IMG/VR virus record: IMGVR_UViG_3300003691_000001
Coordinates: 64,001 to 118,515 of that record
Reading direction: 5' to 3' (one strand)
DNA: 54,515 nucleotides
From: a virus
Shown here one piece after another: positions 12,129 through 51,309 of the stretch (position 1 is its first letter; the number at the start of each line of letters is the position of its first letter). The notes below the pieces were generated by a model. It made no database searches and was not told where the DNA came from. It saw only the letters and a list, made by a program, of their open reading frames with translations. A program made the translations under genes and the position numbers.

Positions 12129-12140
12129 TAGTTATTGATT

Positions 12141-13997: not shown

Positions 13998-14064
13998 TTT
14001 TAATTCCTCTGGAATAGTGGTCGTCGGCTTCTGCCAACTAGTGTGTGGACTGGATGTCCTAATG

Positions 14065-16486: not shown

Positions 16487-16497
16487 GTGATGTCCTG

Positions 16498-24517: not shown

Positions 24518-24594
24518 TGGTGGGACCAGGAGGATTCGAACCACCGACCTGCTGATCTTCAATCAGCCACTCTAACCATCTGAGTTACAGTCCC
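24518..24594 (-). tRNA. tRNA-Phe (GAA)
   Basis: Full cloverleaf with encoded CCA. Anticodon loop TTGAAGA on stem GCTGA/TCAGC; T-loop TTCGAAT. Confidence 0.95.
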
Positions 24595-24600
24595 TTTGTA

Positions 24601-24677
24601 TGGAGCGGGTAAGGAGATTCGAACTCCTGCGAAGAGGGTGGAAGCCACTTACTCTGACCTGACTGAGCTATACCCGC
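24601..24677 (-). tRNA. tRNA-Gly (TCC)
   Basis: Acceptor GCGGGTA/TACCCGC with T73 and CCA. Anticodon loop CTTCCAC; the anticodon stem has one T-T mismatch, so modest decay is possible. Confidence 0.85.
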
Positions 24678-24682
24678 ATAAT

Positions 24683-24751
24683 TGGTGGATGCAGTGAGGT
24701 GGAAGCCTCTGCTGATCAAGCATTCCAACCCTTATAGGGGTTGCTGCATCC
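24683..24751 (-). tRNA. Degenerate tRNA-like element with intact acceptor and CCA
   Basis: The acceptor pairs perfectly (GGATGCA/TGCATCC, then ACCA), but only 69 bases separate the ends and the usual T-loop is absent. Three short arms are seen: AACC/GGTT, TGCT/AGCA and GAGG-CTTCCA-CCTC. The last shares GGCTTCCACC with the neighbouring tRNA-Gly anticodon arm. Probably a decayed tRNA or a tRNA mimic. Confidence 0.5.
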
Positions 24752-24757
24752 TTTGTA

Positions 24758-24832
24758 TGGTGCACCCACAGAGAATTGAACTCTGATTGTCGGCTTGAAA
24801 AGCCGATGTCCTGACCGTTAGACGATAGGTGC
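24758..24832 (-). tRNA. tRNA-Glu (TTC)
   Basis: Cloverleaf with CCA; anticodon stem TCGGC/GCCGA, loop TTTTCAA. Confidence 0.95.
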
Positions 24833-24833
24833 T

Positions 24834-24909
24834 TGGTAGTCCTAGGTTGATTCGAACAACCGACCTCACCTTTATCAGAGGTGGGCTCTACCAACTGAGC
24901 TACAGGACT
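24834..24909 (-). tRNA. tRNA-Ile (GAT)
   Basis: Cloverleaf with CCA; anticodon stem CACCT/AGGTG, loop CTGATAA. Only one base separates it from tRNA-Glu. Confidence 0.94.
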
Positions 24910-24922
24910 TCAATATGACTTA

Positions 24923-24996
24923 TGGAGTACGTGAAGGGAATTGAACCCCCGTAAGAGGATTTGCAATCCCCCGCCTAGCCATTCGGCAACACGTAC
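24923..24996 (-). tRNA. tRNA-Cys (GCA)
   Basis: Cloverleaf with CCA; anticodon loop TTGCAAA on stem GGGGA/TCCTC. Confidence 0.93.
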
Positions 24997-25005
24997 TTAA
25001 TATAA

Positions 25006-25101
25006 TGGAGATGGGTTAGGGATTCGAACCCTAGGAGCTATGTTGCCATAGCTCGACGGTTTTCAAAACCGCTGCAATAAACCAGACTCTGCCAACCCAC
25101 C
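25006..25101 (-). tRNA. tRNA-Ser (TGA)
   Basis: Type II tRNA with a long variable arm (GAGCTATG..CATAGCTC) and CCA; anticodon loop TTTGAAA on stem GCGGT/ACCGT. Confidence 0.95.
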
Positions 25102-25107
25102 ATTGTA

Positions 25108-25200
25108 TGGCGGAAGAGGAAGGATTTGAACCTTCGGGCCATCCTGTAGACGACCGGTACCTTAGCAGGGCACTGCATTAAACCACTCTGCCACTCTTCC
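25108..25200 (-). tRNA. tRNA-Ser (GCT)
   Basis: Type II tRNA with long variable arm, G73 and CCA; anticodon loop CTGCTAA. Confidence 0.94.
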
Positions 25201-25224
25201 AAATACACTTCTTTAGTGTTTGTT

Positions 25225-25302
25225 TGGTAGGGGTGGCTGGATTCGAACCAAGCGACCAATCGGTTAAAAGCCGACTGCTCTAAACCGCTGAGCTACACCC
25301 CC
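25225..25302 (-). tRNA. tRNA-Lys (TTT)
   Basis: Anticodon stem GTCGG/CCGAT with loop CTTTTAA; acceptor closes with a G-T pair at 1-72 and CCA is encoded. First tRNA downstream of the promoter at 25359-25387. Confidence 0.92.
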
Positions 25303-25358
25303 GTTATACTGTTACTCCGTTTATCGGAGGATATCGAATCTTTCATTATCTTATTCCT

Positions 25359-25387
25359 ATTATGTACACCGTACAGCACGATGTCAA
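25359..25387 (-). promoter_or_regulatory. Sigma70 promoter inside the tRNA array
   Basis: TTGACA (25382-25387), 17-bp spacer, CATAAT (25359-25364), reading leftward into tRNA-Lys and the tRNAs to 24518. Confidence 0.85.
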
Positions 25388-25390
25388 CTA

Positions 25391-25564
25391 TTAAATTGTG
25401 TATTGAAACTCTTCATTCACATACTGATGAATGGCCTGTTCCTTTGTAAGGTTGTACCTTTCTTTGCAGCGCTCTTTAAAATCTACAAGTCTTATCTGCT
25501 TCTCTTCTGGAGTTAAATCATCCCAGGCTTCATTAGCTGCTTTTAACAGTTCTGCCGTTGTCAT
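25391..25564 (-). CDS. 57-residue protein encoded inside the tRNA array
   Basis: Start ATG 25562-25564 with AGAGGAG upstream. The longer open frame would run through two tRNA genes and is rejected. Product MTTAELLKAANEAWDDLTPE continues as a charged helical protein ending in NEEFQYTI. Its stop lies just upstream of the -35 box of the next promoter. Function unknown. Confidence 0.8.
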   Translation of the reverse strand: MTTAELLKAANEAWDDLTPEEKQIRLVDFKERCKERYNLTKEQAIHQYVNEEFQYTI

Positions 25565-25578
25565 TTTAACTCCTCTTA

Positions 25579-25653
25579 TGGTGGTCCAGGGTAGAGTTGA
25601 ACTACCGACCCTCCAATTATGAGTTGGGCGCTCTACCATTGAGCTACTGGACC
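25579..25653 (-). tRNA. tRNA-Met or tRNA-Ile2 (CAT)
   Basis: Cloverleaf with CCA; anticodon loop CTCATAA. Elongator Met and lysidine-modified Ile2 cannot be separated by eye. Confidence 0.88.
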
Positions 25654-25659
25654 TTTGTA

Positions 25660-25735
25660 TGGTGTGACGACTTGGAGTCGAACCAAGGCAAGCCAGATTC
25701 ACAGTCTGGGTCTCTACCAACCGAGATCCCGCCAC
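25660..25735 (-). tRNA. tRNA-His (GTG)
   Basis: Cloverleaf with CCA; anticodon stem CCAGA/TCTGG, loop CTGTGAA. Discriminator is A rather than the usual C. Confidence 0.92.
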
Positions 25736-25742
25736 TTTATTA

Positions 25743-25819
25743 TGGAGCACCAGAAGGGATTTGAACCCCTGCTCTACAAATTATGAGCTTGCTGCATTAG
25801 ACCGCTATGCTACTCGTGC
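25743..25819 (-). tRNA. tRNA with CAT anticodon (Met or Ile2)
   Basis: Second CAT tRNA, loop CTCATAA, CCA encoded; the acceptor has one G-G mismatch and the anticodon stem contains G-T pairs. Confidence 0.82.
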
Positions 25820-25825
25820 TTTATC

Positions 25826-25901
25826 TGGAGCCTACGACAGGAATCGAACCCGTGGCATCTTCCTTACAAGGGAAGCGCTCTACCAGCTGAGCTACATAGG
25901 C
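25826..25901 (-). tRNA. tRNA-Thr (TGT)
   Basis: Cloverleaf with CCA; anticodon stem CTTCC/GGAAG, loop CTTGTAA. Confidence 0.95.
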
Positions 25902-26135
25902 TGAATCGTTGGTAGCTGCTACCTACCGTATACATACTCGCGCTTATTGCAGGCCTGTACAGGCGCTTCGTAGGTCCTATTACATGTTTAGAGACAGGCT
26001 GAACTCAGTACCGGTCTATTACATCGGAAGGACTGCTTGTCATCTAACTTATCGCTAGGACATTCCCTTCATCTCGCCTACACCTTTTGAGTGTTACGTA
26101 CGCAGCATCGCAGATTTTCTGCTGTCGATATAATT
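25902..26135. other. Gap in the tRNA array
   Basis: 234 bases with no supported tRNA or protein gene. Possibly remnants of lost tRNAs; no clear promoter was seen. Confidence 0.5.
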
Positions 26136-26211
26136 TGGCTAGGGAGGTACGACTTGAACGTACAATCGTCACAGTCAAAGTGTGATGCTTCACCAATTAA
26201 GCTACTCCCTA
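26136..26211 (-). tRNA. tRNA-Gln (TTG)
   Basis: Begins with T1 and ends G73-CCA as usual for Gln; acceptor TAGGGAG/CTCCCTA; anticodon stem TCACA/TGTGA, loop CTTTGAC. Confidence 0.93.
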
Positions 26212-26220
26212 TGAATTCTT

Positions 26221-26311
26221 TACCTTGTACAGGACCCGAACCTACAGCACCCCTTCTTGCAAGTGGACCCTCATAGAGGGCTGTGTTTCCGAAATATTGC
26301 ACCAACAAGGT
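26221..26311 (-). tRNA. Degenerate type II (Leu-like) tRNA element
   Basis: Acceptor ACCTTGT/ACAAGGT and T-arm GTAGG-TTCGGGT-CCTGT are intact and the D-arm resembles tRNA-Leu, with a long variable region. The anticodon arm is a CCCTC-TAT-GAGGG hairpin without a normal 7-base loop, and no CCA is encoded. Likely a pseudogene or a tRNA-like RNA. Confidence 0.5.
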
Positions 26312-26318
26312 GATTTAG

Positions 26319-26392
26319 TAGCGGGTCCCAGACTCGAACTGGGGATCTCCGGCTTATGAGGCCGACGAGATGACCAACTTCTCCAACCCGCT
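26319..26392 (-). tRNA. Initiator-like tRNA-Met (CAT)
   Basis: The D-arm and anticodon arm (GGAGAAG..TCATCTCG, then TCGGC-CTCATAA-GCCGG) strongly resemble bacterial tRNA-fMet, but position 1-72 is a normal A-T pair and the three G-C pairs of the initiator stem are altered. The end is ACTA, so CCA must be added or repaired. Confidence 0.85.
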
Positions 26393-26403
26393 ATTGTAGC
26401 TAT

Positions 26404-26431
26404 AGCATACGCCAATCTTTACGCATGTCAA
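26404..26431 (-). promoter_or_regulatory. Sigma70-like promoter for the lower tRNA array
   Basis: TTGACA (26426-26431), 16-bp spacer, TATGCT (26404-26409), reading leftward into the initiator-like tRNA and tRNA-Gln. Confidence 0.72.
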
Positions 26432-26440
26432 TACTTAATA

Positions 26441-26513
26441 TGGACAACCTGGCAGGATTTGAACCTACGTCCAAGGGAAACCCCTATGATTAGCTTTCCA
26501 ACGCATCAGGTTG
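26441..26513 (-). tRNA. Degenerate tRNA-like element with intact acceptor, T-arm and CCA
   Basis: Acceptor CAACCTG/CAGGTTG with T73-CCA and T-arm GTAGG-TTCAAAT-CCTGC are perfect. The anticodon region folds only as AGGG-GTTT-CCCT and U8 is missing. The decoding function is probably lost. Confidence 0.5.
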
Positions 26514-26519
26514 TTTATA

Positions 26520-26598
26520 TGGTCTCCGTAGATGGACTCGAACCACCGACCCCTCCGTCCCAAGCGGAGTGCTCTAAACCAGACTGAGCTACACAGAG
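26520..26598 (-). tRNA. tRNA-Pro (TGG)
   Basis: Cloverleaf with CCA; anticodon stem CTCCG/CGGAG, loop CTTGGGA. Confidence 0.95.
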
Positions 26599-26613
26599 TT
26601 ATTACTAATAAAA

Positions 26614-26691
26614 TGGCTGGCAATTTAGGATTCGAACCTAACTCATTCTCGGTTAACAGCCGAGTGCATTCACCTAGAATGCTAATCGCCA
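26614..26691 (-). tRNA. tRNA-Asn (GTT)
   Basis: Cloverleaf with G73-CCA; anticodon stem CTCGG/CCGAG, loop CTGTTAA. Its 5' end overlaps the last codons of the upstream small gene by 10 bases. Confidence 0.94.
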
Positions 26692-30166: not shown

Positions 30167-31633
30167 TTACAAGCAAAGACTCTCAGGTGTACATTTCCCA
30201 GCTACAGACTGTACCTCACTGAAGCTTAACAGCTTTTCACCATTCAAACCTTCATAGTACAAATCTACTAACATATTTATTCTTCCACCGAGATCTTCTT
30301 CGTTAACACACTCTAGCTGTCCATCCTTACCCTCTACAACAGCTAAACGACCTCTCTTCGATACCTTACCAGGGGTAAGCTTACCAACCCCCTCCCAGGC
30401 ATCTGAGCCCTTACGTTTCACAGCTGATAGCTTAAAAGCGAATCCGAGTGTATCTCGATTACATCCGTTCAACAGTGCACCTCCCGATCCAAAACATGTA
30501 TTGTCTAAAGCCCATCCACTTGCTACGACATTCTTGATTAGAATAGGCAATGTGCCTCCGTCTGTCAATATGGACATCCCATCACCTTGGATAGTGGTAA
30601 TGTGAGGAGGTAACTTCTTAAAACCTCGAGTGTTCACAGTGATCTCATTAGGAATGCACTCTTCAATCCAATTCATTACATCGATCACCTTAGAGGTGGC
30701 ATCACCGGAATCAGGTCGTAGTACAATAGTCTTACCTTGCTTCTTGATGATTTCAATCAAGTCTGCACACCCCTTGAAGAAGACTTCCTTTACAAAGTTC
30801 TCATCATCATAAGAGTCGATAACCATTGCCAATCCCCATCCAGGGATAGTACCTTCTGCAAGTGTACCATCAATGTTACCATTGATAAACTTTTCAAGTA
30901 AGCCTCGTACAAACGGTAACTCCTTATCAGCATCCACCAAGGTCATCACAGAGTGGGCAGTTGCACAGATTGTAGCCCCATACACCTTGGTCGTTTCATA
31001 GTCAATCTGTACCTGTCTAACAGCCTTTGTATTATCCGTACCCATGAAGTGTACAAGGTGTCCTTGACCGAGTATGCCAGCAACCTCAAGTGACTGACAA
31101 GCTCTCATTCCAAAATCATTCAGCATGAAGGGGAGCTTATCATCGTTATCGCACGAAGCCATCATCCCATACATGATAGCATGCTTAGCTGCCCAGCTTT
31201 GAGTTGATACAGAACATGGTGCCCATGCATTCAAGAAATAATCTTCAAAAAGACCAACTAACCATGAATACTTAGGGTCGGTGTTAGTGATTTGCAGCAT
31301 AGGAATCCCTGTACGCATCACTGTACCCTCTTCAATGACTTGGATATGCAATGGTAGGGTACCATCTGGATAGTCCACCAGCAGCTCCCTGAAGCCTTGT
31401 ACGTGTGCAGGCATTCCGTAGGACTTAAAGAAGGTTTCATCCTCTGGTGTCATTTCAAAGTCAACACTCCCCTCTAATTCCTGAATTAGCTTTTGGAATC
31501 CAAAGACTGCAGCTACTGCATCTTTTACTCGAGCTTCCATATAGCATGTTGCATATTCAATATCTTCATAGCCCATTAAATAGTGACTACCGATGTAACC
31601 ATCCCAACTGTATAAATTAATACCTTTACCCAT
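30167..31633 (-). CDS. nadV: Nicotinamide phosphoribosyltransferase (NAMPT/NadV)
   Basis: 488 residues from the ATG at 31631-31633, chosen because AGGAGA precedes it and the longer open frame (29 more residues) would overlap the upstream gene. Family marks: YSWDGYIGSHYLMGYEDIEY near the start, NDFGMRACQSLEVAG, HFMGTDNTKA, ATAHSVMT, VLRPDSGDATSKV, IQGDGM and CFGSGGALLNGCNRDTLGFAFK, the phosphoribosyl-binding core. It converts nicotinamide and PRPP to NMN. The product is the substrate of the NMN adenylyltransferase three genes upstream in the same operon. Confidence 0.95.
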   Translation of the reverse strand: MGKGINLYSWDGYIGSHYLMGYEDIEYATCYMEARVKDAVAAVFGFQKLIQELEGSVDFEMTPEDETFFKSYGMPAHVQGFRELLVDYPDGTLPLHIQVIEEGTVMRTGIPMLQITNTDPKYSWLVGLFEDYFLNAWAPCSVSTQSWAAKHAIMYGMMASCDNDDKLPFMLNDFGMRACQSLEVAGILGQGHLVHFMGTDNTKAVRQVQIDYETTKVYGATICATAHSVMTLVDADKELPFVRGLLEKFINGNIDGTLAEGTIPGWGLAMVIDSYDDENFVKEVFFKGCADLIEIIKKQGKTIVLRPDSGDATSKVIDVMNWIEECIPNEITVNTRGFKKLPPHITTIQGDGMSILTDGGTLPILIKNVVASGWALDNTCFGSGGALLNGCNRDTLGFAFKLSAVKRKGSDAWEGVGKLTPGKVSKRGRLAVVEGKDGQLECVNEEDLGGRINMLVDLYYEGLNGEKLLSFSEVQSVAGKCTPESLCL

Positions 31634-31655
31634 CCCTATTCTCCTATTAAATAAT

Positions 31656-31964
31656 TTATTCTTTCTCCAACTCTGAAAGAGCCAGTTTTGTATTCTGCAC
31701 TTCTTTCTCCTGAGTTGCAAGCTTTTCCTTCATCTTTTTAACAATGCGTAAGTACTCTGCATGCTCTTCAGTAAACCTTTCTACAAAGTACTCTGGAAGA
31801 TTCTCTTCATACACCTCCCCTGTAACCCCAGGAATGGTGTATATAGGATCTTCACTCCTATAGTACACACTTACCTTATATCTGTCAAACAACTCTTGAG
31901 CAGCAGCTACATCCTTTCTCAGGGCATCCTTTGCAGCCCAGTACTCCCCATTGGTCATAATCAT
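31656..31964 (-). CDS. Unknown coiled-coil protein
   Basis: 102 residues, mostly charged helix with a C-terminal coiled coil (EYLRIVKKMKEKLATQEKEV). ATGA overlap with the upstream gene. Lies between two NAD genes but has no known NAD motif. Confidence 0.7.
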   Translation of the reverse strand: MIMTNGEYWAAKDALRKDVAAAQELFDRYKVSVYYRSEDPIYTIPGVTGEVYEENLPEYFVERFTEEHAEYLRIVKKMKEKLATQEKEVQNTKLALSELEKE

Positions 31965-32272
31965 AGTTCCAGACCCATCTTACGCTTTTGTTCAAGGACT
32001 CCTTTCGCAGCTGCAGCTACACGGCTACCAGCCGCTGCTTGGTACTTAGTAGCCTTAGATAACTCCTCTTGTGCAACCCTCATAACCTCTTCTGCTGTTA
32101 GTAGGTTATCCCTTTCTTTCACATCCAATGCATTAAGTAATCCACTTATGTTAAAAGACCCGCTGTAACCTTTTATAGAATACCTGTATGCACTCATACC
32201 TGGATTATGTACGATAGACATCTCTATTCCGTAACTTGCAATAAGCTCCAGTGCCTTCTTTAATTCATCCAT
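31961..32272 (-). CDS. Unknown helical protein
   Basis: 103 residues; starts MDELKKALELIASYGIEMSI, then a long helix with an Ala-rich stretch (YQAAAGSRVAAAAKG). Overlaps the NMNAT stop by 8 bases. No family recognised. Confidence 0.68.
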   Translation of the reverse strand: MDELKKALELIASYGIEMSIVHNPGMSAYRYSIKGYSGSFNISGLLNALDVKERDNLLTAEEVMRVAQEELSKATKYQAAAGSRVAAAAKGVLEQKRKMGLEL

Positions 32273-33272
32273 AAAACCTCTCCGTCATATGTAGTATATC
32301 TCCATGATCTGCAAACCACCCCCGTGCACCTACTGTAGGAGGTTTCACCCATGCAATACTCTGCACTTCGCCTTTCTGAGCTTTCAGTTTACCACTACAT
32401 TTTTCAAAGTCAACACTGAATACGTGTGTAGACCTATTACCTCCACGCTGTGTACCGGTTAAATAAGCTTCTAGCTCTAGATCACCAGGGTCTACAATCA
32501 GTCCTGTTTCCTCTTCAAGCTCTCGAGCTGCACCGGATTCATATGATACATCTGTTACATCTAGGAATCCACCAGGTAAAGCTATCTTCCCGATACCAGG
32601 GGATTCTCCTCGAAGGATTGTAAGGATACGTCCACGCCTTCGTACAATCACATCTGTGCAGTCAAAATGTGGCAAAGGGAAGGGTGCAACTGCACGGGCT
32701 CTGTCCCATCGCTCTTCATACTCCTCTTCATCATCTACTTCAACCAGTACAGAGGATAGATCAAGTGTACTTATGTACACCCCTACATCCTTGGCAACCT
32801 TGCCTGTAGACCAATCTAAGCCCCTGTAGTACATGTTCCGTAGCTGTGTGGAAGATGTACTGTATGTTTCCTCTCCAAGACATTCAGTGCGGAAATACTC
32901 CTCCATGCATAGTCTTTCAGCCTGGTCATTACCACGGATGAAGCAATACAATGGGTATGTATATCCCATGAATTCTACACCCGATTTAATCTCTAAGTTC
33001 ATAATAAGAGCGTTAAGCCATAGATCATCGTCATACCGACTATCTCCTACAGGGTGTATCACGTACTCTGTATCCATAAAAGCATCCAGAGTAAGCTCTA
33101 AGCAGTGCTTACGCTCTTCAAAGCTTAGAGGGTTCTTAGGTGTACGCCCTTTATCTGCACTCCCTACAAGCACTATAAGCTTCTTACAACGTGATGCAGC
33201 CTCGTTCAGAAGGTGCTCATGACCTTCATGCAGGAATTGGAACCTACCTAATACAAAACCTACCTCATCCAT
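32265..33272 (-). CDS. nadM: Bifunctional NMN adenylyltransferase / Nudix hydrolase
   Basis: 335 residues. The N-terminal nucleotidyltransferase domain has GRFQFLHEGH (9-18, with the HxGH site) and YSTSSTQLR (137-145, the ISSTxxR-type site). The C-terminal Nudix domain has GGFLDVTDVSYE..AARELEEETG (234-257), a Nudix box one residue longer than the usual spacing. The first domain makes NAD+ from NMN and ATP; the second may hydrolyse ADP-ribose. The same fusion is known in bacteria and in KVP40-like phages. Its operon partner is NAMPT. Confidence 0.93.
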   Translation of the reverse strand: MDEVGFVLGRFQFLHEGHEHLLNEAASRCKKLIVLVGSADKGRTPKNPLSFEERKHCLELTLDAFMDTEYVIHPVGDSRYDDDLWLNALIMNLEIKSGVEFMGYTYPLYCFIRGNDQAERLCMEEYFRTECLGEETYSTSSTQLRNMYYRGLDWSTGKVAKDVGVYISTLDLSSVLVEVDDEEEYEERWDRARAVAPFPLPHFDCTDVIVRRRGRILTILRGESPGIGKIALPGGFLDVTDVSYESGAARELEEETGLIVDPGDLELEAYLTGTQRGGNRSTHVFSVDFEKCSGKLKAQKGEVQSIAWVKPPTVGARGWFADHGDILHMTERFYG

Positions 33273-33558
33273 ATACAGGCCCTACAGGTTGGTTCATAGC
33301 ATTAATGAAGCTTTCCACCTTATGAAAGGCTAAGCTCCAGTCCACAGGTAACATAGGTTCATCTACACCTTCAGATATGGAGTGAAGAACATTCCTACGG
33401 ATACTTGCCACCTCCTCTGTCATCTTGCCACCTAAATCTTCATAGGCATTCAATAGAAGTAATGCAAATGCAGTCTTGATTGTAGCACGGTAAAGGTTGT
33501 GGACGTAAACGTACTCCGCCTCATCCAATGCTTGCATTGCTGCTAAAACATCAATCAT
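33265..33558 (-). CDS. Unknown protein next to the NAD genes
   Basis: 97 residues; helical (MIDVLAAMQALDEAEYVYVH, FALLLLNAYEDLGG). Overlaps the NMNAT start by 8 bases, so co-translated. No family recognised. Confidence 0.65.
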   Translation of the reverse strand: MIDVLAAMQALDEAEYVYVHNLYRATIKTAFALLLLNAYEDLGGKMTEEVASIRRNVLHSISEGVDEPMLPVDWSLAFHKVESFINAMNQPVGPVYG

Positions 33559-33632
33559 CTTACTCTCCTTATACGCCTCTCATGGCGTGTTAGTATTGTT
33601 TAAGCGCTCTATGCGCCACTTAAGTCATGTTA

Positions 33633-34184
33633 TCAGTAAAGATTTCGGAGGCTATCCCGTACCTTCATTAACGCAAAACCCAATTTATTATCTCCCCTCC
33701 ACTTCTCAGGGTGGCAAACATCTTTATGATCTTTATCAAGCCCAACTCCCCATACTTTATCGTATGGTGCAGCCTCTGTCAAGACTTTATTACCGGTCCC
33801 TAGTAAGAATCTACGTATCCCTCCATTCTGCGTGAACTTTAGCATGTTACCGTAAATTACTATAGCCCTCGCATGCTTATCCCACACATCTTGCCTAAAC
33901 CCTTCTACACCTCTTCCAATCTTCTTAGCCTCTCCAGGGTGTGAAGAACGGAGGATTGCATTGTGCGAGTCGTTATCACAGAATAGAAGGGCCTTACGAG
34001 ACATCATCCAATGCTCAGCTGTGGAGTACGTATCTCCTTGGAAAGTAAACGGGGAATCCTGATACCATTGGCTTAAGCATTCCTGACCAATTAAAGCAGA
34101 TCTACCATTCTTACGGTGACCAAAGAACGGTAAATAGTCTAAATCACAATCTGCCTCTAGCAAGTCCTTAATTTCACTATACAT
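33633..34184 (-). CDS. NADAR-family protein (YbiA/RibX-like, ADP-ribose processing)
   Basis: 183 residues when started at the ATG 34182-34184, which forms a TAATG junction with the upstream stop and has GGGAG nine bases before it. Marks of the NADAR family: FTFQGDTYSTAEHWMMSRKA, HPGEAKKIGRGV, IVIYGNMLKFTQNGGIRRFL and DKVWGVGL ... LGFALMKVRDSL. NADAR proteins remove ADP-ribose from guanine in DNA and phage versions counter DarT-type toxins. Placed in the same operon as NAMPT and NMNAT-Nudix. Confidence 0.85.
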   Translation of the reverse strand: MYSEIKDLLEADCDLDYLPFFGHRKNGRSALIGQECLSQWYQDSPFTFQGDTYSTAEHWMMSRKALLFCDNDSHNAILRSSHPGEAKKIGRGVEGFRQDVWDKHARAIVIYGNMLKFTQNGGIRRFLLGTGNKVLTEAAPYDKVWGVGLDKDHKDVCHPEKWRGDNKLGFALMKVRDSLRNLY

Positions 34185-34717
34185 TAACAATTCTCCCATG
34201 GAAAGGTTTTTATTATCTTTATGTAACATTCCTGTTGATACCCTCCACTACTCATAGTCTTGTGTACCACCCAATGCACCTGTTTATGCACACCAGGTGC
34301 AAGCCTTATAGGAGGTTCCTTTCCCCTGTGTAAGGAGCTATATGGAAGAGGGCATACTAACCTCTCTTCAGTTTTTGTGTACGTATTCCAAGCATACATT
34401 ACTCTGTGCACCTTCCCCTCGACAATCTCTGTTTCATGACCGAAGCGTTCGATGCTGTATTCAGCCCACTGCTCAGGAGTCCATTTAGAAATTTCATCAA
34501 GGGTTTCCTGAGAGTCACTAGACAGCACAGGTGTACCATTTACCATTGTACCACGTATTTCCTTAGAAGGGGGTTTATCAGAAAAATAACTTCCTCCTGC
34601 TGCCAGTGCAGTATAGAAAAGAAACCATTCTGCCCCAGAAGTATAACCGTAAAGGATAATGCTTCCAAGTGTACAACCTAATAGGAATATTGCGGCAATG
34701 AGTAAGGTAAAAGACAT
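34184..34717 (-). CDS. Membrane protein with large soluble domain
   Basis: 177 residues from the ATG at 34715-34717 (GGAG seven bases upstream). The longer start at 34750 overlaps the promoter's -10 box. Two hydrophobic segments (SFTLLIAAIFLLGCTLGSII and EWFLFYTALAAGGSYF), then a soluble part containing IRLAPGVHKQVHWVVHKT. Function unknown. Confidence 0.72.
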   Translation of the reverse strand: MSFTLLIAAIFLLGCTLGSIILYGYTSGAEWFLFYTALAAGGSYFSDKPPSKEIRGTMVNGTPVLSSDSQETLDEISKWTPEQWAEYSIERFGHETEIVEGKVHRVMYAWNTYTKTEERLVCPLPYSSLHRGKEPPIRLAPGVHKQVHWVVHKTMSSGGYQQECYIKIIKTFPWENC

Positions 34718-44242: not shown

Positions 44243-44502
44243 CCTACTCTCTCCTTTGTATCCTTAGCTTCTACACCATCTAAATCCACTACACCCAATT
44301 CAAGGTTATTACCGTAACAGTACCAATATCCTACATTACCGTTAGCAAGTCCACCAGGGTAATATGTAGGCTCATTCTCATACCAATATACATCGCCTTC
44401 CTTATCCACAGCAATGTAACCCGCTTCAGGGACTATGAACTCTATACCATTGTACTTTACTACAATCGATGCAACCTTATCCGACCTTGTTAATAACTTC
44501 AT
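44236..44502 (-). CDS. Unknown protein, tandem paralogue A
   Basis: 88 residues from the ATG 44500-44502 (ATGA junction). The N-terminal part VVKYNGIEFIVPEAGYIAVD, EGDVYWYENEPTYY aligns with the gene at 44587. C-terminal EAKDTKERV also matches. A small beta-rich domain of unknown function. Confidence 0.66.
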   Translation of the reverse strand: MKLLTRSDKVASIVVKYNGIEFIVPEAGYIAVDKEGDVYWYENEPTYYPGGLANGNVGYWYCYGNNLELGVVDLDGVEAKDTKERVGC

Positions 44503-44621
44503 ATACTCCATTCCCCTATGCTTACATGATCTTTAAATCCTTTCACTACATCAATACGGAGCTGAATCTCTTCACTCAGTTCGGGTTTATCCTCCAAAAG
44601 CTGATAAAGCTTCCTTAACAT
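44499..44621 (-). CDS. 40-residue helical peptide
   Basis: ATG 44619-44621 to TGA 44499, overlapping the next start as ATGA. Acidic/basic helix (MLRKLYQLLEDKPELSEEIQ). GGGAG lies close to the ATG, closer than usual. Overlaps the end of the gene at 44587. Confidence 0.5.
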   Translation of the reverse strand: MLRKLYQLLEDKPELSEEIQLRIDVVKGFKDHVSIGEWSI

Positions 44622-44910
44622 CTCTCCCTTTACCCCTGGAACTACATGAGGCTCCACTTAAAGTAAGAATGTCCTGTACAGGACGTAATGTATCTTTCCA
44701 ATCCACACCTTCCAAGTCTACGGTTAACAATTTATCAATATCGCAACTACAGTGCCACTCCCTAGAACTATAAGTAGGCTCCTCCTTGTACCACCATACA
44801 GTCCCGTCCTCATCCGTGGCAATATAACCATATCCATTCACCAATAGACGGATACCAAAGTAATCCACTGAAACCGGTGTGTCCGGTATGTTCATCTGTA
44901 TAATCTTCAC
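44587..44910 (-). CDS. Unknown protein, tandem paralogue B
   Basis: 107 residues; FGIRLLVNGYGYIATDEDGT, WWYKEEPTY and LTVDLEGVDWKDT align with paralogue A, with an extra C-terminal tail. First gene after the promoter at 44977-45004, so it begins the long leftward operon. Confidence 0.68.
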   Translation of the reverse strand: MKIIQMNIPDTPVSVDYFGIRLLVNGYGYIATDEDGTVWWYKEEPTYSSREWHCSCDIDKLLTVDLEGVDWKDTLRPVQDILTLSGASCSSRGKGRDVKEALSAFGG

Positions 44911-44976
44911 TTCTCATCCCTCATTAATTCTATCATACCTTTCATACATTCTCTCCAATCCGTTTAATGTGTGCAT

Positions 44977-45004
44977 AGAATACACCCTCTAAATCCTATG
45001 TCAA
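44977..45004 (-). promoter_or_regulatory. Sigma70 promoter for the 44.9-30.2 kb operon
   Basis: TTGACA (44999-45004), 16-bp spacer, TATTCT (44977-44982). An AATGTGTGCA site (44966-44975, top strand) lies directly downstream of the -10 box, a good place for a repressor. Confidence 0.78.
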
Positions 45005-45161
45005 GAACTATCCCCTCCAGTAGCAAAAATGGTCTATCCTATACAAACCCCTTACTCTGTGTATACATACTCATCTCATTTATTATTTGAAAAATTTTTA
45101 ACATGCACCTCTGAACCTTTCACAGATATGCACTGAAACACCCTATAAGCGCTCCACAACG

Positions 45162-45276
45162 TGCAATGTGTGCAATGTGTGAAGAACCCAAGGTAGCGCT
45201 TGCAATGTGTACAGGGCTCCTTTATGCAATGTGTGTAATGTGTGCAGAACAATACACCCTTAGTACAATGTGTGCA
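45162..45276 (+). repeat. AATGTGTGCA repeat array with 63-bp super-repeat
   Basis: TGCAATGTGT-type copies start at 45162, 45171, 45201, 45225, 45234 and 45264, all in one orientation; spacings of 9, 30, 24, 9, 30 mean a 63-bp unit duplicated once. More copies occur at about 45484-45530 (AATGTGTGCA, CATGTGTGCA, CATGTGTACA) and one at the promoter 44966-44975. Confidence 0.75.
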
Positions 45277-45422
45277 AGGGGCTTTAGTGTACCGGTGTGC
45301 AAAGGATGTAAATTGGGTTTTTATTTTGAAAATTTTCAAGGGGTGTAAATGGGATAGTTCTCAGAACTATACGAGGTGGGTGCACTGCCCTTATATACAG
45401 TGGCGGGGGGGGTCTAAAAACC

Positions 45423-45446
45423 CCGTGAAACATTCCGTGAAACATT
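45423..45446 (+). repeat. 12-bp perfect tandem repeat carrying parS half-sites
   Basis: Two copies of CCGTGAAACATT in direct tandem; CGTGAAACA is one arm of the parS palindrome found at 46.2, 47.6 and 48.3 kb. Confidence 0.65.
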
Positions 45447-46169
45447 ATAGAACCATGTAGTCATAGTACACGTGTGCACTCTATTCAATGTGTGCATTCT
45501 AGTGCATGTGTGCAGATATGCATGTGTACAAGCGTGCACTGTGAAAGGTGTAGGTATACACGCGATATAGTTAGTAGGCGCTTACAGTGTAGAGGGATGT
45601 GCACAATAAACGTACAGTTTGAAGAGGTCTGAGATAGTGCAGGCGTGCATGGAATGTGTGTAACTATTACTAATAATTAAGTGTTTATAGCGTTACAATG
45701 CAAGCTTATCGCTTATATTTTGCACATATGCAAAAATATGCATGTATACAACAATATAGGCATGCACATATAAAAGTGGTGATATACACCCCACCTCCAG
45801 CCATTTAAGCGTTTTTGCGTGTAGTCGCGTGTAGTATTTAGTGGGGGGTTTTTAGCCGTGCAACTCGGTAGAGTTTTACCCTCTGTAAGGGCGAAGAACA
45901 CCCTTTACGGCTGGATTTAGGATTTACCTATACTAAAGCATAGGTCATGGAGTAAGAGGGCTTAGAGGCTAATCTAGGGCCTCTGAGAGGTGTACATAAT
46001 ATAGTCGGTGTCTGTTGACATCGAATAGGATTTATGGGTGTTTATAGACTACATTGCTCCTATCTCAGAGCAAACAAATTACAGTGTATATATGTACAGT
46101 GCTTAACTGTTTGAGGTTGATCTATATATATAGACCATATAAGGCCGTTATGGTCTCCCTATAAACCAT

Positions 46170-46185
46170 TGTTTCACGTGGAACA
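46170..46185. promoter_or_regulatory. parS-like site (TGTTTCACGTGGAACA)
   Basis: One mismatch from a perfect palindromic parS; lies 24 bases downstream of the terminator of the 66-residue gene. Bacterial ParB consensus is TGTTNCACGTGAAACA. Confidence 0.75.
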
Positions 46186-46205
46186 ATGCACAAATAGCAG
46201 GTATT

Positions 46206-46228
46206 AAAAAGCCCCAATTAAGGGGCTT
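46206..46228 (-). terminator. Intrinsic terminator AAGCCCCTTAATTGGGGCTT + T-run
   Basis: Downstream of the 66-residue gene. The 20-base stem-loop is identical to that at 49638-49657. Confidence 0.85.
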
Positions 46229-46242
46229 GTGTGGGTAGTAGT

Positions 46243-46443
46243 TTATGTTTCATCGGTGAAAAAGTAATAATCGGCACCATAGTCATAATAAACACCTATA
46301 CCATTTATAGTGTCTATATGATCACAATATTTAATATCTTGATTAGATGTTTCAACTTCGCACCATACCAAACCTGATGCATAGTTTATAGCGTTCTCCT
46401 CTGTAGCATCGTCGCCTTGTAATATAGCATCGTATACCTTCAT
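46243..46443 (-). CDS. Small acidic unknown protein
   Basis: 66 residues, Asp/Tyr-rich with a C-terminal YYDYGADYYFFTDE. Last gene before a terminator. No family recognised. Confidence 0.65.
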   Translation of the reverse strand: MKVYDAILQGDDATEENAINYASGLVWCEVETSNQDIKYCDHIDTINGIGVYYDYGADYYFFTDET

Positions 46444-46467
46444 AATGTAATCCCTAAATAGTTAAGT

Positions 46468-46695
46468 TTATACCCAATAGAAAGTAGAACATTTGTACCC
46501 ATTGTGTACTTCGACACGAATAGGCCATTCATCATAGCCATAAATAATTGTAGTGTGATCTGTTTCTTGATCGCAATGCGCTACAAAGCTTTGTTGATTA
46601 TGTCTAGTTGTGCATTCGACAATCACAGACTTCAACTGACAAGCTTCTTGTGCCTTTGCTGCCACTAATAAAACCGCTATTAATCTAGTATACAC
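46468..46695 (-). CDS. Putative exported small protein
   Basis: 75 residues if started at GTG 46693-46695, preceded by AGGTGATATC; this gives a signal peptide MYTRLIAVLLVAAKAQEACQ. Longer frames start at ATG 46746 or TTG 46785 but lack a clear ribosome site. A TATAAT box at 46811-46816 may drive it. Mature part has three cysteines. Confidence 0.55.
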   Translation of the reverse strand: MYTRLIAVLLVAAKAQEACQLKSVIVECTTRHNQQSFVAHCDQETDHTTIIYGYDEWPIRVEVHNGYKCSTFYWV

Positions 46696-46854
46696 GATAT
46701 CACCTATCCTGATTAGCTGTTGAGTTCCCCTCAACCGGTAACCCATCTTAACAAATTGGGCGCATATAACAACCCCTAAATACAAATAGGTGTAAATAAA
46801 TCACTGTTCAATTATACAGTGTACTATTAAGCCTTGAAGTGTGGATAACTTTAG

Positions 46855-47157
46855 TTAATCGGTTACTAATGCGTCAACTGTTAAACTACTGAGATACTCT
46901 TCAAACCTATATACACTCATGCCTAAGTTGTATCCCCTTGCACCTCTTTTACTAACTGATCTAACATATTCACTAGGGTTGTTATGATTGTAATAGTTAT
47001 CTACAAAGGTTTTCCTCTTTTTAGCAGTTGAAAATATAGCCGTTATACCATAATAACTCATATGGCCCGTGTGTGGATTTGGTGCACCTGTTGTAACATC
47101 TTGGCCTATTTGTACGAAATAAAGTTTTTTCTTTTCAGTTGATTCTACTATATTCAT
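46855..47157 (-). CDS. Unknown protein
   Basis: 100 residues; basic and Tyr-rich (FVDNYYNHNNPSEYVRSVSK). No family recognised. Confidence 0.65.
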   Translation of the reverse strand: MNIVESTEKKKLYFVQIGQDVTTGAPNPHTGHMSYYGITAIFSTAKKRKTFVDNYYNHNNPSEYVRSVSKRGARGYNLGMSVYRFEEYLSSLTVDALVTD

Positions 47158-47180
47158 GATTTTTACCTTTTTAAAAAACG

Positions 47181-47513
47181 TTATAGTGATTCTATAAAAT
47201 CCAATACGTCTAACGTATGTTCACAGTCTAGCGATTCACTAGCTAACTGTTCAGCGTAATAATTTAACGCTATAACCATTAGATTCAAATCTCCCCCGTT
47301 AAGATTGTATGCTCCGGCACCTTTCCAAAAGGACGTGTATAGGCTTCCACATTCTTGTATTTCTTCGACTTGCCATTGTGACATTTCATCATTAAAATCT
47401 AACAGGGAGTCACTATAACATTTTAAGGCGCGCCTTAACACCCTTCTGTGAACGTGTGGAAAAGTTAAAACGTGTTGCTTTTTAAGTCTATCCACGATAT
47501 CACAATAATTCAT
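47181..47513 (-). CDS. Unknown protein
   Basis: 110 residues, helical, with an aromatic middle (LYTSFWKGAGAYNLNGGDLN). No family recognised. Confidence 0.65.
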   Translation of the reverse strand: MNYCDIVDRLKKQHVLTFPHVHRRVLRRALKCYSDSLLDFNDEMSQWQVEEIQECGSLYTSFWKGAGAYNLNGGDLNLMVIALNYYAEQLASESLDCEHTLDVLDFIESL

Positions 47514-47547
47514 ATTCTAACCCGTTTATTTTGAATAGTTACTACCC

Positions 47548-47570
47548 AAAAAGCCCTAATAAAAGGGCTT
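47548..47570 (-). terminator. Intrinsic terminator
   Basis: AAGCCCTTTTATTAGGGCTT then TTTGGG on the minus strand, just downstream of the 64-residue gene and four bases before a parS site. Confidence 0.8.
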
Positions 47571-47573
47571 GTA

Positions 47574-47589
47574 TGTTCCACGTGAAACA
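47574..47589. promoter_or_regulatory. parS site (TGTTCCACGTGAAACA)
   Basis: Exact match to TGTTNCACGTGAAACA, in a short intergenic gap between a terminator and the gene at 47615. Confidence 0.85.
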
Positions 47590-47614
47590 ATACATTCAAA
47601 AATCGGGTTAAATG

Positions 47615-47809
47615 CTATTTATAGTTGCAAACATGAATGGGATTCATTGCAGTCATTGCAGCCATTGCACCCAGTCGGAATTTGAAGCTTTTATCTAGCG
47701 ATTGAATTTTGTTCATTTTACTTGTAGCGCTCACACTGTTAGCTAATTGCATATTAGCTATATGCTCAGAGCGGATTTTATTGGATGATGCATTGCGTAT
47801 AGTGTTCAT
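47615..47809 (-). CDS. Small unknown protein
   Basis: 64 residues from the ATG 47807-47809 (AAAGG upstream; longer frame overlaps the previous gene). Ser/Asn-rich with a Met/Ala-rich end (RLGAMAAMTAMNPIHVC). Function unknown. Confidence 0.6.
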   Translation of the reverse strand: MNTIRNASSNKIRSEHIANMQLANSVSATSKMNKIQSLDKSFKFRLGAMAAMTAMNPIHVCNYK

Positions 47810-47820
47810 ATTGTAAGCCT

Positions 47821-48273
47821 TTAGTAGTCTGTTAACCAATCGTTTGGAATTCCGTAACACTCGAAACCCATATCTAAATCAATAGAATCTAGATTACCAC
47901 AGTTTGGTACGCAAGGGCTACACAAATTTACATAAGATTTAATAGGGCTTTCAAATATGAAGAAATTAAGCGCGCCTCCTAAATAACTGGTTTTATACCT
48001 CACCTCCTCATATTCGCCGGATACGCTAGGCTCTTCACAACTATAATGCTCTAATTGATCCAGCAAACTTGTACTATCACTAATATAATCGTATGCATCC
48101 CCTATACCATCCCAACCATTCATCATAGCAAGTTCCTTTGAAAATTCATCATGACTATGATCAAAACCGGATTCATATAATAAATGGTCTACTAACTCAC
48201 TGCGTAGAGAATTAGCGGATATATAGCCAAACCTAATCCCTGTTTTTTCGTTCACATTTGATAGTGTGTTCAT
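47821..48273 (-). CDS. Unknown acidic protein
   Basis: 150 residues from the ATG 48271-48273 with AGGA seven bases upstream. An earlier ATG would lie inside the parS site. Contains YDYISDSTSLLDQLEHYSCE and a Cys/Pro-rich segment VNLCSPCVPNCG. Function unknown. Confidence 0.65.
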   Translation of the reverse strand: MNTLSNVNEKTGIRFGYISANSLRSELVDHLLYESGFDHSHDEFSKELAMMNGWDGIGDAYDYISDSTSLLDQLEHYSCEEPSVSGEYEEVRYKTSYLGGALNFFIFESPIKSYVNLCSPCVPNCGNLDSIDLDMGFECYGIPNDWLTDY

Positions 48274-48298
48274 ACAGTAATCCTGTTTAGTATTTGAT

Positions 48299-48314
48299 TG
48301 TTTCACGTGAAACA
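48299..48314. promoter_or_regulatory. Perfect parS site (TGTTTCACGTGAAACA)
   Basis: Exact palindromic ParB-binding consensus, in the leader of the 150-residue gene. Confidence 0.9.
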
Positions 48315-48322
48315 TTGGTTAA

Positions 48323-48634
48323 TTAGATATCGTTTAATGGTAATTGACTTTTATTAATATTTCCAGCTCTACAGGATTTAACTAGGTCGGTTAATGACCT
48401 AGGCATTGAATAAAACCGCCTTATTGCTGGGGTATTACGCTCTACAATAGCGGCCTTTTCCCATTTAGCAGCTAACACTAGATTTCTAGTGTATTTTGTG
48501 CCATATGGCCCCTTTACCGCTGTAAACCCTCGTTTGGTAGTGTATATGATGACCTTAGGTGGTTCTTTAAAAGCCCAAAATATAACGTCATGACGGTTTT
48601 TAACCTGCTTTAGACGTACAAGTAAAGTGTGCAT
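48323..48634 (-). CDS. Basic unknown protein
   Basis: 103 residues with many Lys/Arg, possibly nucleic-acid binding (PKVIIYTTKRGFTAVKGPYG). Preceded closely by a 42-residue gene. No family recognised. Confidence 0.64.
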   Translation of the reverse strand: MHTLLVRLKQVKNRHDVIFWAFKEPPKVIIYTTKRGFTAVKGPYGTKYTRNLVLAAKWEKAAIVERNTPAIRRFYSMPRSLTDLVKSCRAGNINKSQLPLNDI

Positions 48635-48637
48635 ATA

Positions 48638-48766
48638 CTAACCTTTCATATTGTTAAATTTAATAAATCCAAACAAATAACCTGTTGAAGACAATAACAC
48701 GCCATTTACAGACACGTCAACCACCTTTAATAGTAAGTTATCTATTCGTGTAATTTGTTTAGACAT
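48638..48766 (-). CDS. 42-residue peptide with hydrophobic segment
   Basis: ATG 48764-48766 (or an in-frame ATG 5 codons earlier) to TAG at 48638, 3 bases before the next start. MSKQITRIDNLLLKVVDVSV, then a hydrophobic stretch. The promoter at 48804 lies upstream. Supported mainly by spacing. Confidence 0.5.
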   Translation of the reverse strand: MSKQITRIDNLLLKVVDVSVNGVLLSSTGYLFGFIKFNNMKG

Positions 48767-48803
48767 ACTATCTACTCGCATATGTTGCTATTTGATATCT
48801 TTA

Positions 48804-48831
48804 ACTATAGTTAACTATTCGCAGTGTGCAA
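48804..48831 (-). promoter_or_regulatory. Promoter TTGCAC-16-TATAGT
   Basis: -35 at 48826-48831, -10 at 48804-48809, directly upstream of the 42-residue gene. Resembles the TTGCAA-16 promoters at 51.4 and 51.9 kb. Confidence 0.65.
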
Positions 48832-48971
48832 GAAAATAGTGTAAATAAATTTAATTAAATAAAGGGTATACAATTTAGCACATGTGTGGCAAGGTTTATG
48901 GGCTTGTGACTTGTTCACAATTCAACCAATTTATAGGGGTAACTATGCATAAAATTTAACCAATTAAAACA

Positions 48972-48983
48972 GTACACGTGTAC
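48972..48983. promoter_or_regulatory. Palindrome GTACACGTGTAC
   Basis: Perfect 12-bp palindrome; variants GTACACACATGTAC (49075-49088) and GTACGCGTGTAC (49110-49121) follow within 140 bp. Candidate operator set for one regulator. Confidence 0.55.
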
Positions 48984-49061
48984 CTATTTATTTCAACCTT
49001 TTCACGTTGGGACGATAGAGTATGCCTGGTTGATTTTCAACCAACTGGAATGGTCTTTTGT

Positions 49062-49127
49062 GACTTACTAGTCAGTACACACATGTACTTTTATGACTTG
49101 CTGGTCAGTGTACGCGTGTACTCTTAT
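49062..49127 (+). repeat. 33-bp tandem repeat, two copies differing only by transitions
   Basis: Copies at 49062-49094 and 49095-49127, both starting GACTT and ending in TTAT. They differ at 7 of 33 positions, every difference A/G or C/T. Each carries a GTAC-type palindrome. Confidence 0.8.
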
Positions 49128-49330
49128 ATTTTATGGCTAGAACTGGCTGGTCACCAATAAAAATCATTTTAGTACGATCGTTCCAGGCCTTATGTTAACG
49201 CGCCTTTTCCCAGTCTCCCTATATATACAAAATCTCGTTTTTGCTCTGAGTTCCAAAATTTGGCACAACTCTACTTTTTCAATTCTGAAAATACTCTATA
49301 GTGGTGCTCATGGATAGCCTACAAGGCATT

Positions 49331-49529
49331 AAGGCCGCTAGTGTATAGTATACTAGGCATTTAGTATTAATTAGTTCAATAAGTATAATATATTATGCAT
49401 GCTAAAGCTAGAAAGCCTACTCAATAGGGACGTTGTAAAACGTTTAAGGGTAGGCTCTAAAGGCTCGCACTAGCGGCCTTGTATCCCCTTCAAGGGGGTT
49501 TTGTGCCTATACCCTATAGTTGGTATAGG
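49331..49529 (+). ncRNA. Candidate structured RNA: nested stems plus rightward terminator
   Basis: AAGGCCGCTAGTG (49331-49343) pairs with CACTAGCGGCCTT (49468-49480). Inside are AGCCTAC/GTAGGCT (49414-49420/49450-49456) and ACGTT/AACGT (49430-49443). CCCCT-TCA-AGGGG followed by GTTTT (49485-49502) is a plausible intrinsic terminator for rightward transcription, followed by a second hairpin CCTATACC/GGTATAGG (49506-49529). No promoter was clear. Confidence 0.5.
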
Positions 49530-49636
49530 TCTTTATGTATGCCCCTTCATAGGGCTGTAATTAGTCCATGATATGCGCGCCCCCTTTGAGCGCTATGAGA
49601 ACACAAAACACGGGTACACTCCGAGCTTGTACCTAG

Positions 49637-49657
49637 AAAGCCCCAATTAAGGGGCTT
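49637..49657 (-). terminator. Intrinsic terminator, same 20-base stem as at 46.2 kb
   Basis: AAGCCCCTTAATTGGGGCTT then TCTAGG on the minus strand, after the 189-residue gene. Confidence 0.75.
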
Positions 49658-49683
49658 ATGTAGATCAGTGGAGTTTGTTAGCT

Positions 49684-50253
49684 TTACATGTGTTTAGCTA
49701 GGAATTGTTCGTACTGGCTTTCTATCTGTAGGCCACCCTTCAGCTTATCTTGTTTAGATCTTAGTTCTTGGATAGTTGTTAAATGGGTGCTTATGGACTT
49801 TTCATTGGCTTCATATTGCTGTCTAATGCTTAACCGTGTAACACCTTGTTGTGGGTTGCTTTCAACCCCTTTACCTTTTAAGGGCTTAGATGCCTTTTGC
49901 TGCTTATCGGCTGTAGCCTTTTTCAGCCGTAATATATCGGCTTTAGTAGGTATAATCAGACCACTATGCGGCTTACTAAATCCCTGTAGGATGCTGATAA
50001 TATCAACTATAACATTTCTATGTAGCATGGCATGTGAGTGCAAAGAACCGCTAAGTTTAGAATGTGCATGAACAATCAATACTTCAGCCGCCAAATCCCT
50101 TGATACCTCATAATCTTTAGCTATTCTCTTTAGGCTACCATGTACACCTGCTCCAGGTAAAACGGTATTACTTAGGTAAGCTACTGAAGGAAAGTTACCA
50201 AAACGTGTTTGAAGAGAAACAGGTATAGAGCTGCTAGAAGTTGAATTGTTCAT
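49684..50253 (-). CDS. Unknown protein with possible helix-turn-helix
   Basis: 189 residues. LKRIAKDYEVSRDLAAEVLI (about 41-60) looks like a helix-turn-helix; the C-terminal part is a Lys/Gln-rich coiled coil. Ser-rich start. It could be a DNA-binding protein, and might even bind one of the nearby repeats, but it does not look like ParB. Confidence 0.6.
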   Translation of the reverse strand: MNNSTSSSSIPVSLQTRFGNFPSVAYLSNTVLPGAGVHGSLKRIAKDYEVSRDLAAEVLIVHAHSKLSGSLHSHAMLHRNVIVDIISILQGFSKPHSGLIIPTKADILRLKKATADKQQKASKPLKGKGVESNPQQGVTRLSIRQQYEANEKSISTHLTTIQELRSKQDKLKGGLQIESQYEQFLAKHM

Positions 50254-50985: not shown

Positions 50986-51309
50986 TTACCCTTGTTTATG
51001 CTGTTCAATATACTGCCTAGCAGCTTCCTTATGTATACAGTTTTTACCGGCTAAGGTTAAGTAATCACCTAAACTTTTCATCTTTTCACCTACACCGCCT
51101 ATATTCATGTTATCCCACGTTTCTAAAGGGATATCGTTTAGGTGTTCACACTTGCTGCTCAACAGCCTTTCAGCGCCTATAATACCGGCTACCCTTTCAG
51201 GCATACCCTTTAAAACGAATTGCGCATAGTAGGCTCTATGAGCTTCCTTGCCGTGTGTGTTAGATAATGCTATGTAGTCTGTATATGTCATAGGTAATTT
51301 AATTTTCAT
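50986..51309 (-). CDS. Unknown protein
   Basis: 107 residues; helical, starts MKIKLPMTYTDYIALSNTHG. First gene after the promoter at 51367. Confidence 0.66.
   Translation of the reverse strand: MKIKLPMTYTDYIALSNTHGKEAHRAYYAQFVLKGMPERVAGIIGAERLLSSKCEHLNDIPLETWDNMNIGGVGEKMKSLGDYLTLAGKNCIHKEAARQYIEQHKQG

Follow-up and report, generated by a model that had tools for sequence, protein, structure and literature searches.

Three exact copies of the canonical bacterial chromosomal parS lie between small genes in the right arm of a tailed phage genome that has no detectable ParB of its own. We propose that these sites are functional mimics of the host centromere that recruit the host ParB, most likely for the positioning or partition of the phage genome, a reading to which we give a probability of roughly 0.58. 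The window, i.e., the whole stretch of DNA that was analysed (54,515 nucleotides, positions 64,001 to 118,515 of a 118,515-bp record), contains exactly three sites with the consensus TGTTNCACGTGAAACA, spread over at most 2.1 kb. Chromosomal ParB reads this 16-mer and then forms a closed CTP clamp that slides into neighbouring DNA; it also stimulates ParA and loads SMC (PMC7022226; PMC12704722).

Three parS sites in a gene-sparse arm

By their sequence, the three sites are canonical parS (Table 1). The initial annotation had placed parS sites at 46170, 47574 and 48299, and each of them matches TGTTNCACGTGAAACA exactly. It had also counted one change in the site at 46170, which proved wrong: as written on the + strand this site reads TGTTTCACGTGGAACA, the reverse complement of TGTTCCACGTGAAACA, and is therefore a full match to TGTTNCACGTGAAACA on the - strand rather than a degenerate one. 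The annotation was right in judging a chance origin very unlikely. Under Markov models of order 0 to 3, between 1.6e-4 and 3.5e-4 exact TGTTNCACGTGAAACA sites would be expected in 118.5 kb (about 0.0003), and the probability of three exact sites under these models is approximately 1e-12, with the clustering within 2.1 kb not counted in. When up to three mismatches to the perfect palindrome were accepted, the window had four matches, against 0.25 expected from shuffled sequences. Beyond the three-site cluster, every 16-mer of the whole 118,515-bp record differed from the perfect palindrome at three positions or more.

Table 1. Features of the right arm, in positions of the window.
Feature	Position	Strand	Description
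parS site 1	46170..46185	-	TGTTCCACGTGAAACA read on the - strand; full consensus match
parS site 2	47574..47589	+	TGTTCCACGTGAAACA; directly adjoins a terminator-like hairpin
parS site 3	48299..48314	.	Perfect palindrome TGTTTCACGTGAAACA; flanked by two - strand genes
Gene-sparse right arm with the three sites	44500..49700	.	About 61% in ORFs of at least 60 aa
Seven small orphan genes, interspersed with and flanking the sites	46243..48634	-	No significant family match
Terminator-like hairpin AAGCCCC-TTAATT-GGGGCTT, then T run	46205..46231	-	Read from the sequence
Terminator-like hairpin AAGCCC-TTTTATTA-GGGCTT, then T run	47553..47572	-	Read from the sequence
Tandem CCGTGAAACATT x2, parS half-sites	45423..45449	+	No full site; function doubtful
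phrog_25437 gene	50986..51309	-	Function unknown; homologue in the parS-bearing contig L066

The likeness between the surroundings of the sites is confined to the 16-mer and one or two bases on each side. Flanks beyond 18 bp are unlike, so the three sites are not one copied segment, and we rejected the duplication of a segment as their source. An extended hairpin was also discarded as the real signal, given that the sites lengthen the palindrome by 0 to 3 pairs only.

The flanking stops and starts confirm that all three sites are intergenic within 2.1 kb, as first described. The site at 46170 lies beyond a gene stop at 46243, the one at 47574 between a stop at 47615 and a start at 47513, and the one at 48299 between a stop at 48323 and a probable start at 48274. 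A longer ORF reaching 48315 would start inside this last parS and would have no ribosome-binding site; by direct reading, the ATG at 48274, preceded by AGGA, is the better start. The surrounding arm is gene-sparse when compared with the earlier 10-kb blocks (roughly 86–99% of their length in ORFs of at least 60 aa vs about 61% in 44.5–49.7 kb), and the last 8.5 kb have a GC content of 37% (vs about 42% elsewhere).

Two of the sites adjoin terminator-like hairpins, which we read by eye and which a consensus terminator scan did not list. The hairpin at 46205..46231 belongs to a 35-nt repeat that is present four times in the arm, the other hairpin is a member of the same repeat family, and the parS at 46170 is located about 20 bp downstream (in the sense of the - strand) of the former. 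The previously described 12-bp tandem repeat at 45423 is real and places the half-site CGTGAAAC at 45424 and 45436. We gave no weight to these matches because they are half-sites, not full sites.

Other elements of the arm deserve mention. The palindrome GTACRCGTGTAC occurs at 45466-45477, 48972-48983 and 49110-49121, all in the same gene-sparse region, and with one mismatch allowed the window had no further copy (6 strand matches vs 0.26 expected); it is a candidate operator or origin element. The stretch 44953-45663 is mostly non-coding and contains many AATGTGTGCA-like repeats, which are possible iterons or a possible regulatory array. The homologue of the phrog_25437 gene in L066 (1455-1796, 47% over 83 aa) is 2.6 kb from the single parS of that contig, and in the focal phage too the gene has a parS at a distance of about 2.6 kb.

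A tailed phage without detectable ParB

The record encodes the markers of a tailed phage: a portal protein (phrog_145), a major head protein (phrog_247), a large terminase, a DNA polymerase, a primase/helicase and a ligase. No close relative was found by DNA comparison among annotated phages, nor among viral contigs queried with the portal protein and a parS-adjacent protein. The genome contigs searched for a link to a host gave no relative either. In the polymerase alignment no sequence exceeded about 44% identity, the value reached by Vibrio phage 277E43-1, and many enterobacterial phages showed 41%. For the C-terminal part of the terminase, identity was 46-49% with Vibrio phages and 38% with Pseudomonas phage hairong. 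The distant polymerase and terminase relatives that we tested, all below 50% identity, had no parS sites, which indicates that the ancestor of the wider group did not have them. One of these terminase relatives, phage hairong (OM223115), has two ParB_N matches near its left end (2297-3421) and no canonical parS. The distant relatives are phages of Vibrio, Pseudomonas and enterobacteria, none of which sporulate, and Gammaproteobacteria are the likeliest guess for the host of the focal phage.

The phage has no ParABS of its own that we could detect. Profile searches of the 118.5-kb record gave no match for ParB_N (PF02195), HTH_ParB (PF17762) or the ParA-type AAA_31 (PF13614), whereas the genomes used as positive controls were matched. 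The initial annotation had suggested that the phage either recruits the host ParB or encodes a ParB outside the window. The carriage of ParB nucleation sites, on which the first option relies, is strongly supported. The second option was not supported, since a check of the rest of the record for parA and parB, which had been proposed, detected neither: the other 64 kb gave no match for ParB_N, HTH_ParB or AAA_31. A ParB encoded outside the window is therefore unlikely, and the host ParB is the probable reader of the sites. Lacking a detectable ParB gene, the phage could use only the ParB of its host.

Other features of the phage were noted as well. A cluster on the - strand (30167-34229) encodes a nicotinamide phosphoribosyltransferase (30167-31720), a fusion of nucleotidyltransferase and NUDIX domains (32265-33272) and a NADAR-domain protein (33633-34229). 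It looks like a pathway of NAD+ salvage of the phage and is possibly involved in counter-defence. The large terminase (16498-18879) and the primase/helicase (6887-9661 of the record) each seem to contain an intein-type insert, with LAGLIDADG / Hom_end and Hint matches, and both inserts match the profile phrog_36964. Finally, an array of 16 tRNA genes, three of which have a Met anticodon, is encoded on the - strand at 24518-26691.

Canonical parS sites in other phages

To search collections of phages we used a query of 30 letters, in which the 18-bp palindrome TTGTTTCACGTGAAACAA stands between runs of N and exact matches of 16 bp are obtained at E of about 8. The perfect parS palindrome was present in 297 of the 50,697 annotated phage records, and its one-base C variant in 164. 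Control palindromes of the same base composition were found in the same records 0 (GACGTC core), 1 (arms changed, core kept) and 5 times (CAGCTG core), and the five records of the latter are a single Erwinia lineage with the match inside a gene. Among the viral contigs of IMG/VR we found at least 120 stretches with the parS pattern, vs 27 for a control over the whole collection. The free base of 149 IMG/VR sites was T in 102, C in 41, G in 4 and A in 2. Judged from these sequences, the preference for T or C at this position (143/149) is the one of real parS. Many isolate records are close kin (P100-like phages of Listeria, phages of Arthrobacter and Microbacterium), and the counts of records thus overstate their independence. 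We also set aside, as likely host contamination, Acinetobacter phage MD-2021a (site over ssuC) and the Listeria contigs LM 4-11-1 and 4-14-1. The contrast between parS and the controls does not depend on kinship or contamination.

The leading names among the phages with parS are those of Listeria, Microbacterium, Arthrobacter, Gordonia, Lactobacillus, Bacillus, Enterococcus, Pseudomonas and Stenotrophomonas, and other records name Vibrio and Ruegeria as hosts. We take the leading hosts, like Vibrio and Ruegeria, to be ParB-bearing genera. Phages of enterobacteria were absent from the ten leading names of either search and from two spread samples of 60 rows. They are numerous in the collection, with 795 (Escherichia), 205 (Salmonella) and 504 (Klebsiella) records having a related polymerase. 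The Enterobacteriaceae lack chromosomal par genes (PMC7022226).

The phages with parS typically lack ParB_N. The domain was absent in all ten records of a first set (P100, Bromius, Bo-Finn, Revolver, Orchid, Greenhouse, CMP1, RpAliso, Spiroplasma phage 4 and a five-site inovirus) and in all eight of a second (phi29, Vibrio phi 3, phiPsa300, Bennie, NoPa, Ldl1, BUCT548 and Atuin). It was also absent in 45 of 50 metagenomic records with parS, which as fragments can miss genes. A 169-kb phage contig without ParB_N (IMGVR_UViG_3300038443_000757, designated G017 or L159) has 10-11 canonical sites, nine of which are in its first 18.2 kb (1-18200) and one at 169,046, near the right end; it codes for a phage helicase, an RNA ligase and tail-spike proteins. 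At the other extreme of size, the 5.8-kb inovirus bajarodino virus 7 (L178) has five sites, of which three fall outside annotated genes; the 4.4-kb microvirus Spiroplasma phage 4 (L177) has one parS just upstream of a sequence resembling a ribosome-binding site.

The sites tend to lie outside genes, as observed in 16 of 25 annotated lineages, when about 10% would be expected at an assumed coding density of 90%. In Vibrio phage phi 3 two sites are in the terminal repeat, which makes four in the genome, and phiPsa300 has one site in its direct terminal repeat. The median site was within 5% of the end of the record in 7 of 21 chosen lineages (binomial P 0.003; KS P 0.013). This bias is no more than suggestive: the ends of many records were set by arbitrary linearisation, and we chose one representative of each lineage by hand.

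The Gordonia phages Orchid and Hello, from two genera, have two intergenic sites in common near the right end, in a stretch where no DNA similarity is detectable beyond the two sites. In Harbinvirus, the exact sites are kept in a stretch of 12-16 kb that diverges by about 5-20%, with two sites one base off in Semele. Such conservation is the signature of selection acting on the 16-mer itself. Around the parS of Orchid and Hello (L173 2501; L274 2601 and 3022) the palindrome is perfect over 30-36 bp. Its outer arms vary from site to site, which would fit the retention of a hairpin or cruciform about the parS.

That the focal phage carries nucleation sites for the host ParB is strongly supported by the exact matches, their number beyond chance, the lack of a detectable phage ParB, and the hundreds of records with parS against nearly empty controls.

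Possible functions and known systems

Recruitment of the host ParB could work as follows. During infection the host ParB, a CTP-dependent DNA clamp, would load at the three right-arm parS, slide into the surrounding DNA and form a partition-type complex on the phage genome. The phage DNA would then be coupled to the ParA/SMC positioning of the host and held at its segregation centre. There the genome would also be condensed, and it could be shared between daughter cells during a slow or postponed lytic programme. Binding of ParB to these sites is very likely, judging from the 16-mer; we infer the spreading of the clamps and the benefit in positioning or partition, and this benefit would consist in a deferred lytic programme or in orderly positioning. 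A role in entrapment in spores as such is unlikely for the focal phage, since its host is probably non-sporulating. ParB on a phage genome need not act strongly, as indicated by parS-tagged lambda, which still replicates and lyses in E. coli making CFP-ParB (PMC13190303).

The sites could instead be decoys: once replicated, hundreds of phage parS would soak up the host ParB, dismantle its partition complexes and stop segregation or the cell cycle. We regard this as unlikely, even if the numbers are favourable to it. Host chromosomes have about 2-22 parS sites (PMC7022226), which three sites multiplied by many copies of the phage genome would outnumber, as would those of the small five-site inovirus, and the parS mimics of SGI1 destabilise its helper plasmid in a dose-dependent manner (PMC10954446). 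Yet some phages with annotated genome ends, Vibrio phage phi 3 and phiPsa300, keep sites in their terminal repeats, which in T5-like phages enter first, before replication, and little would be gained by depleting ParB when parB is non-essential in many bacteria (PMC7022226).

Slightly less probable still is a local control of transcription, in which ParB clamps would silence or insulate the small genes of the right arm, perhaps as a switch that reads the cell-cycle state of the host. The position of the three sites between small genes, two of them next to terminator-like hairpins, is compatible with this, and phi29 and L066 likewise have one site each beside a terminator. According to PMC5521831, overproduction of ParB in P. 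aeruginosa potentiates the repression of promoters adjacent to parS3 and parS4. The loss of Spo0J in B. subtilis, however, left the expression of parS-adjacent genes unchanged (PMC7022226), and a terminator between site and gene speaks against direct control of a promoter.

It is improbable that the palindromes are operators or signals of a phage-encoded protein sharing the target of ParB by coincidence. The record has many unassigned small genes that might encode such a protein, and Noc shows that ParB relatives can change their target (PMC7383237). But the record has no HTH_ParB match, and the same 16-mer with the same T/C freedom is found in unrelated tailed phages, microviruses and inoviruses, which are unlikely to share one gene. 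Least credible is an artefact in which a bacterial origin region was joined to the phage contig: no end repeats were found in the record and its last 8.5 kb have a lower GC content, but the arm consists of small - strand orphan genes that continue the orientation of the phage genes, includes the phage family gene phrog_25437 and has no recognisable chromosomal gene and no parA or parB, and on this gene content we rejected bacterial contamination.

The recruitment of host ParB may extend well beyond the focal phage. We tentatively envisage parS without ParB as a general strategy, evolved repeatedly by tailed phages, microviruses and inoviruses in hosts that encode ParB, and of which the focal phage would be one case. 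In some lineages the sites would be in the DNA that enters first, where host ParB would clamp and SMC load on arrival, so as to capture the genome, anchor it or even assist its entry; at a later stage they would distribute it to the daughter cells. The data suggest that many viruses hitch onto the chromosome segregation machinery of their hosts, which, if true, would make this machinery a common virus target. To our knowledge, phi29 and spores are the single studied case of such targeting.

Several consequences follow. A parS would be a sequence clue to the host range of metagenomic phages, since the host must encode a canonical ParB. It would also raise a question for the field of ParB-CTP clamps, namely the effect of a sliding clamp on a genome that is entering the cell or replicating explosively. 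Model phages with sequenced hosts carry parS, among them phi29, Pseudomonas putida phage NoPa, Ruegeria phage RpAliso and phages of Gordonia and Arthrobacter.

The exploitation of host ParB is already known from phi29, and the kind of phenomenon is therefore known. According to PMC9437464, which cites Meijer et al. 2005, it is Spo0J that traps the chromosome of phi29 inside the spore. Phi29 has four exact TGTTCCACGTGAAACA sites (10445, 15903, 17243 and 18760), and like the focal phage it combines host-type parS with the lack of ParB_N. Its sites are spread over half of the genome, whereas those of the focal phage are a tight intergenic cluster. Its use of them is tied to sporulation and Spo0A, whereas the distant relatives of the focal phage infect non-sporulating Gammaproteobacteria. 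In the literature searched we found no report of such a compact group of intergenic sites in a large phage unrelated to phi29, nor of the occurrence of parS in many lineages, phages with ssDNA among them. Beyond the citation on phi29, the literature that we searched, which did not extend to preprints and most subscription papers, has no report of phage-borne chromosomal parS as a general pattern.

Vibrio phi 3 (T5-like), the Otagovirus phiPsa300, Listeria P100 and the Lactobacillus Harbinvirus resemble the focal phage in having canonical parS and no ParB_N, and no function of these parS is reported in the literature searched. They differ from it in belonging to unrelated lineages and, for phi 3 and phiPsa300, in the location of the sites in terminal repeats. 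P1 and the actinobacteriophages with parABS also have parS on a phage genome, but these are element-specific sites cognate to their own ParB, whereas the focal record has no detected ParA or ParB. With the parS of host chromosomes, where ParABS acts and SMC is loaded, the focal sites have in common the 16-bp consensus and the presence of several sites within a few kb; they differ in being on a phage genome, neither near oriC nor adjacent to parAB. A parallel in arrangement outside phages is that between SGI1 and the ParABS of IncC plasmids (PMC10954446), where a parasite carries the parS of its partner and relies on the ParB which that partner makes. In this case the parasite is an integrative mobilizable element that copies a plasmid parS, and the binding and its effect have been demonstrated by experiment. 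Assuming a ParB-bearing host, the focal phage has the same arrangement, the parS of the partner and no ParB of its own.
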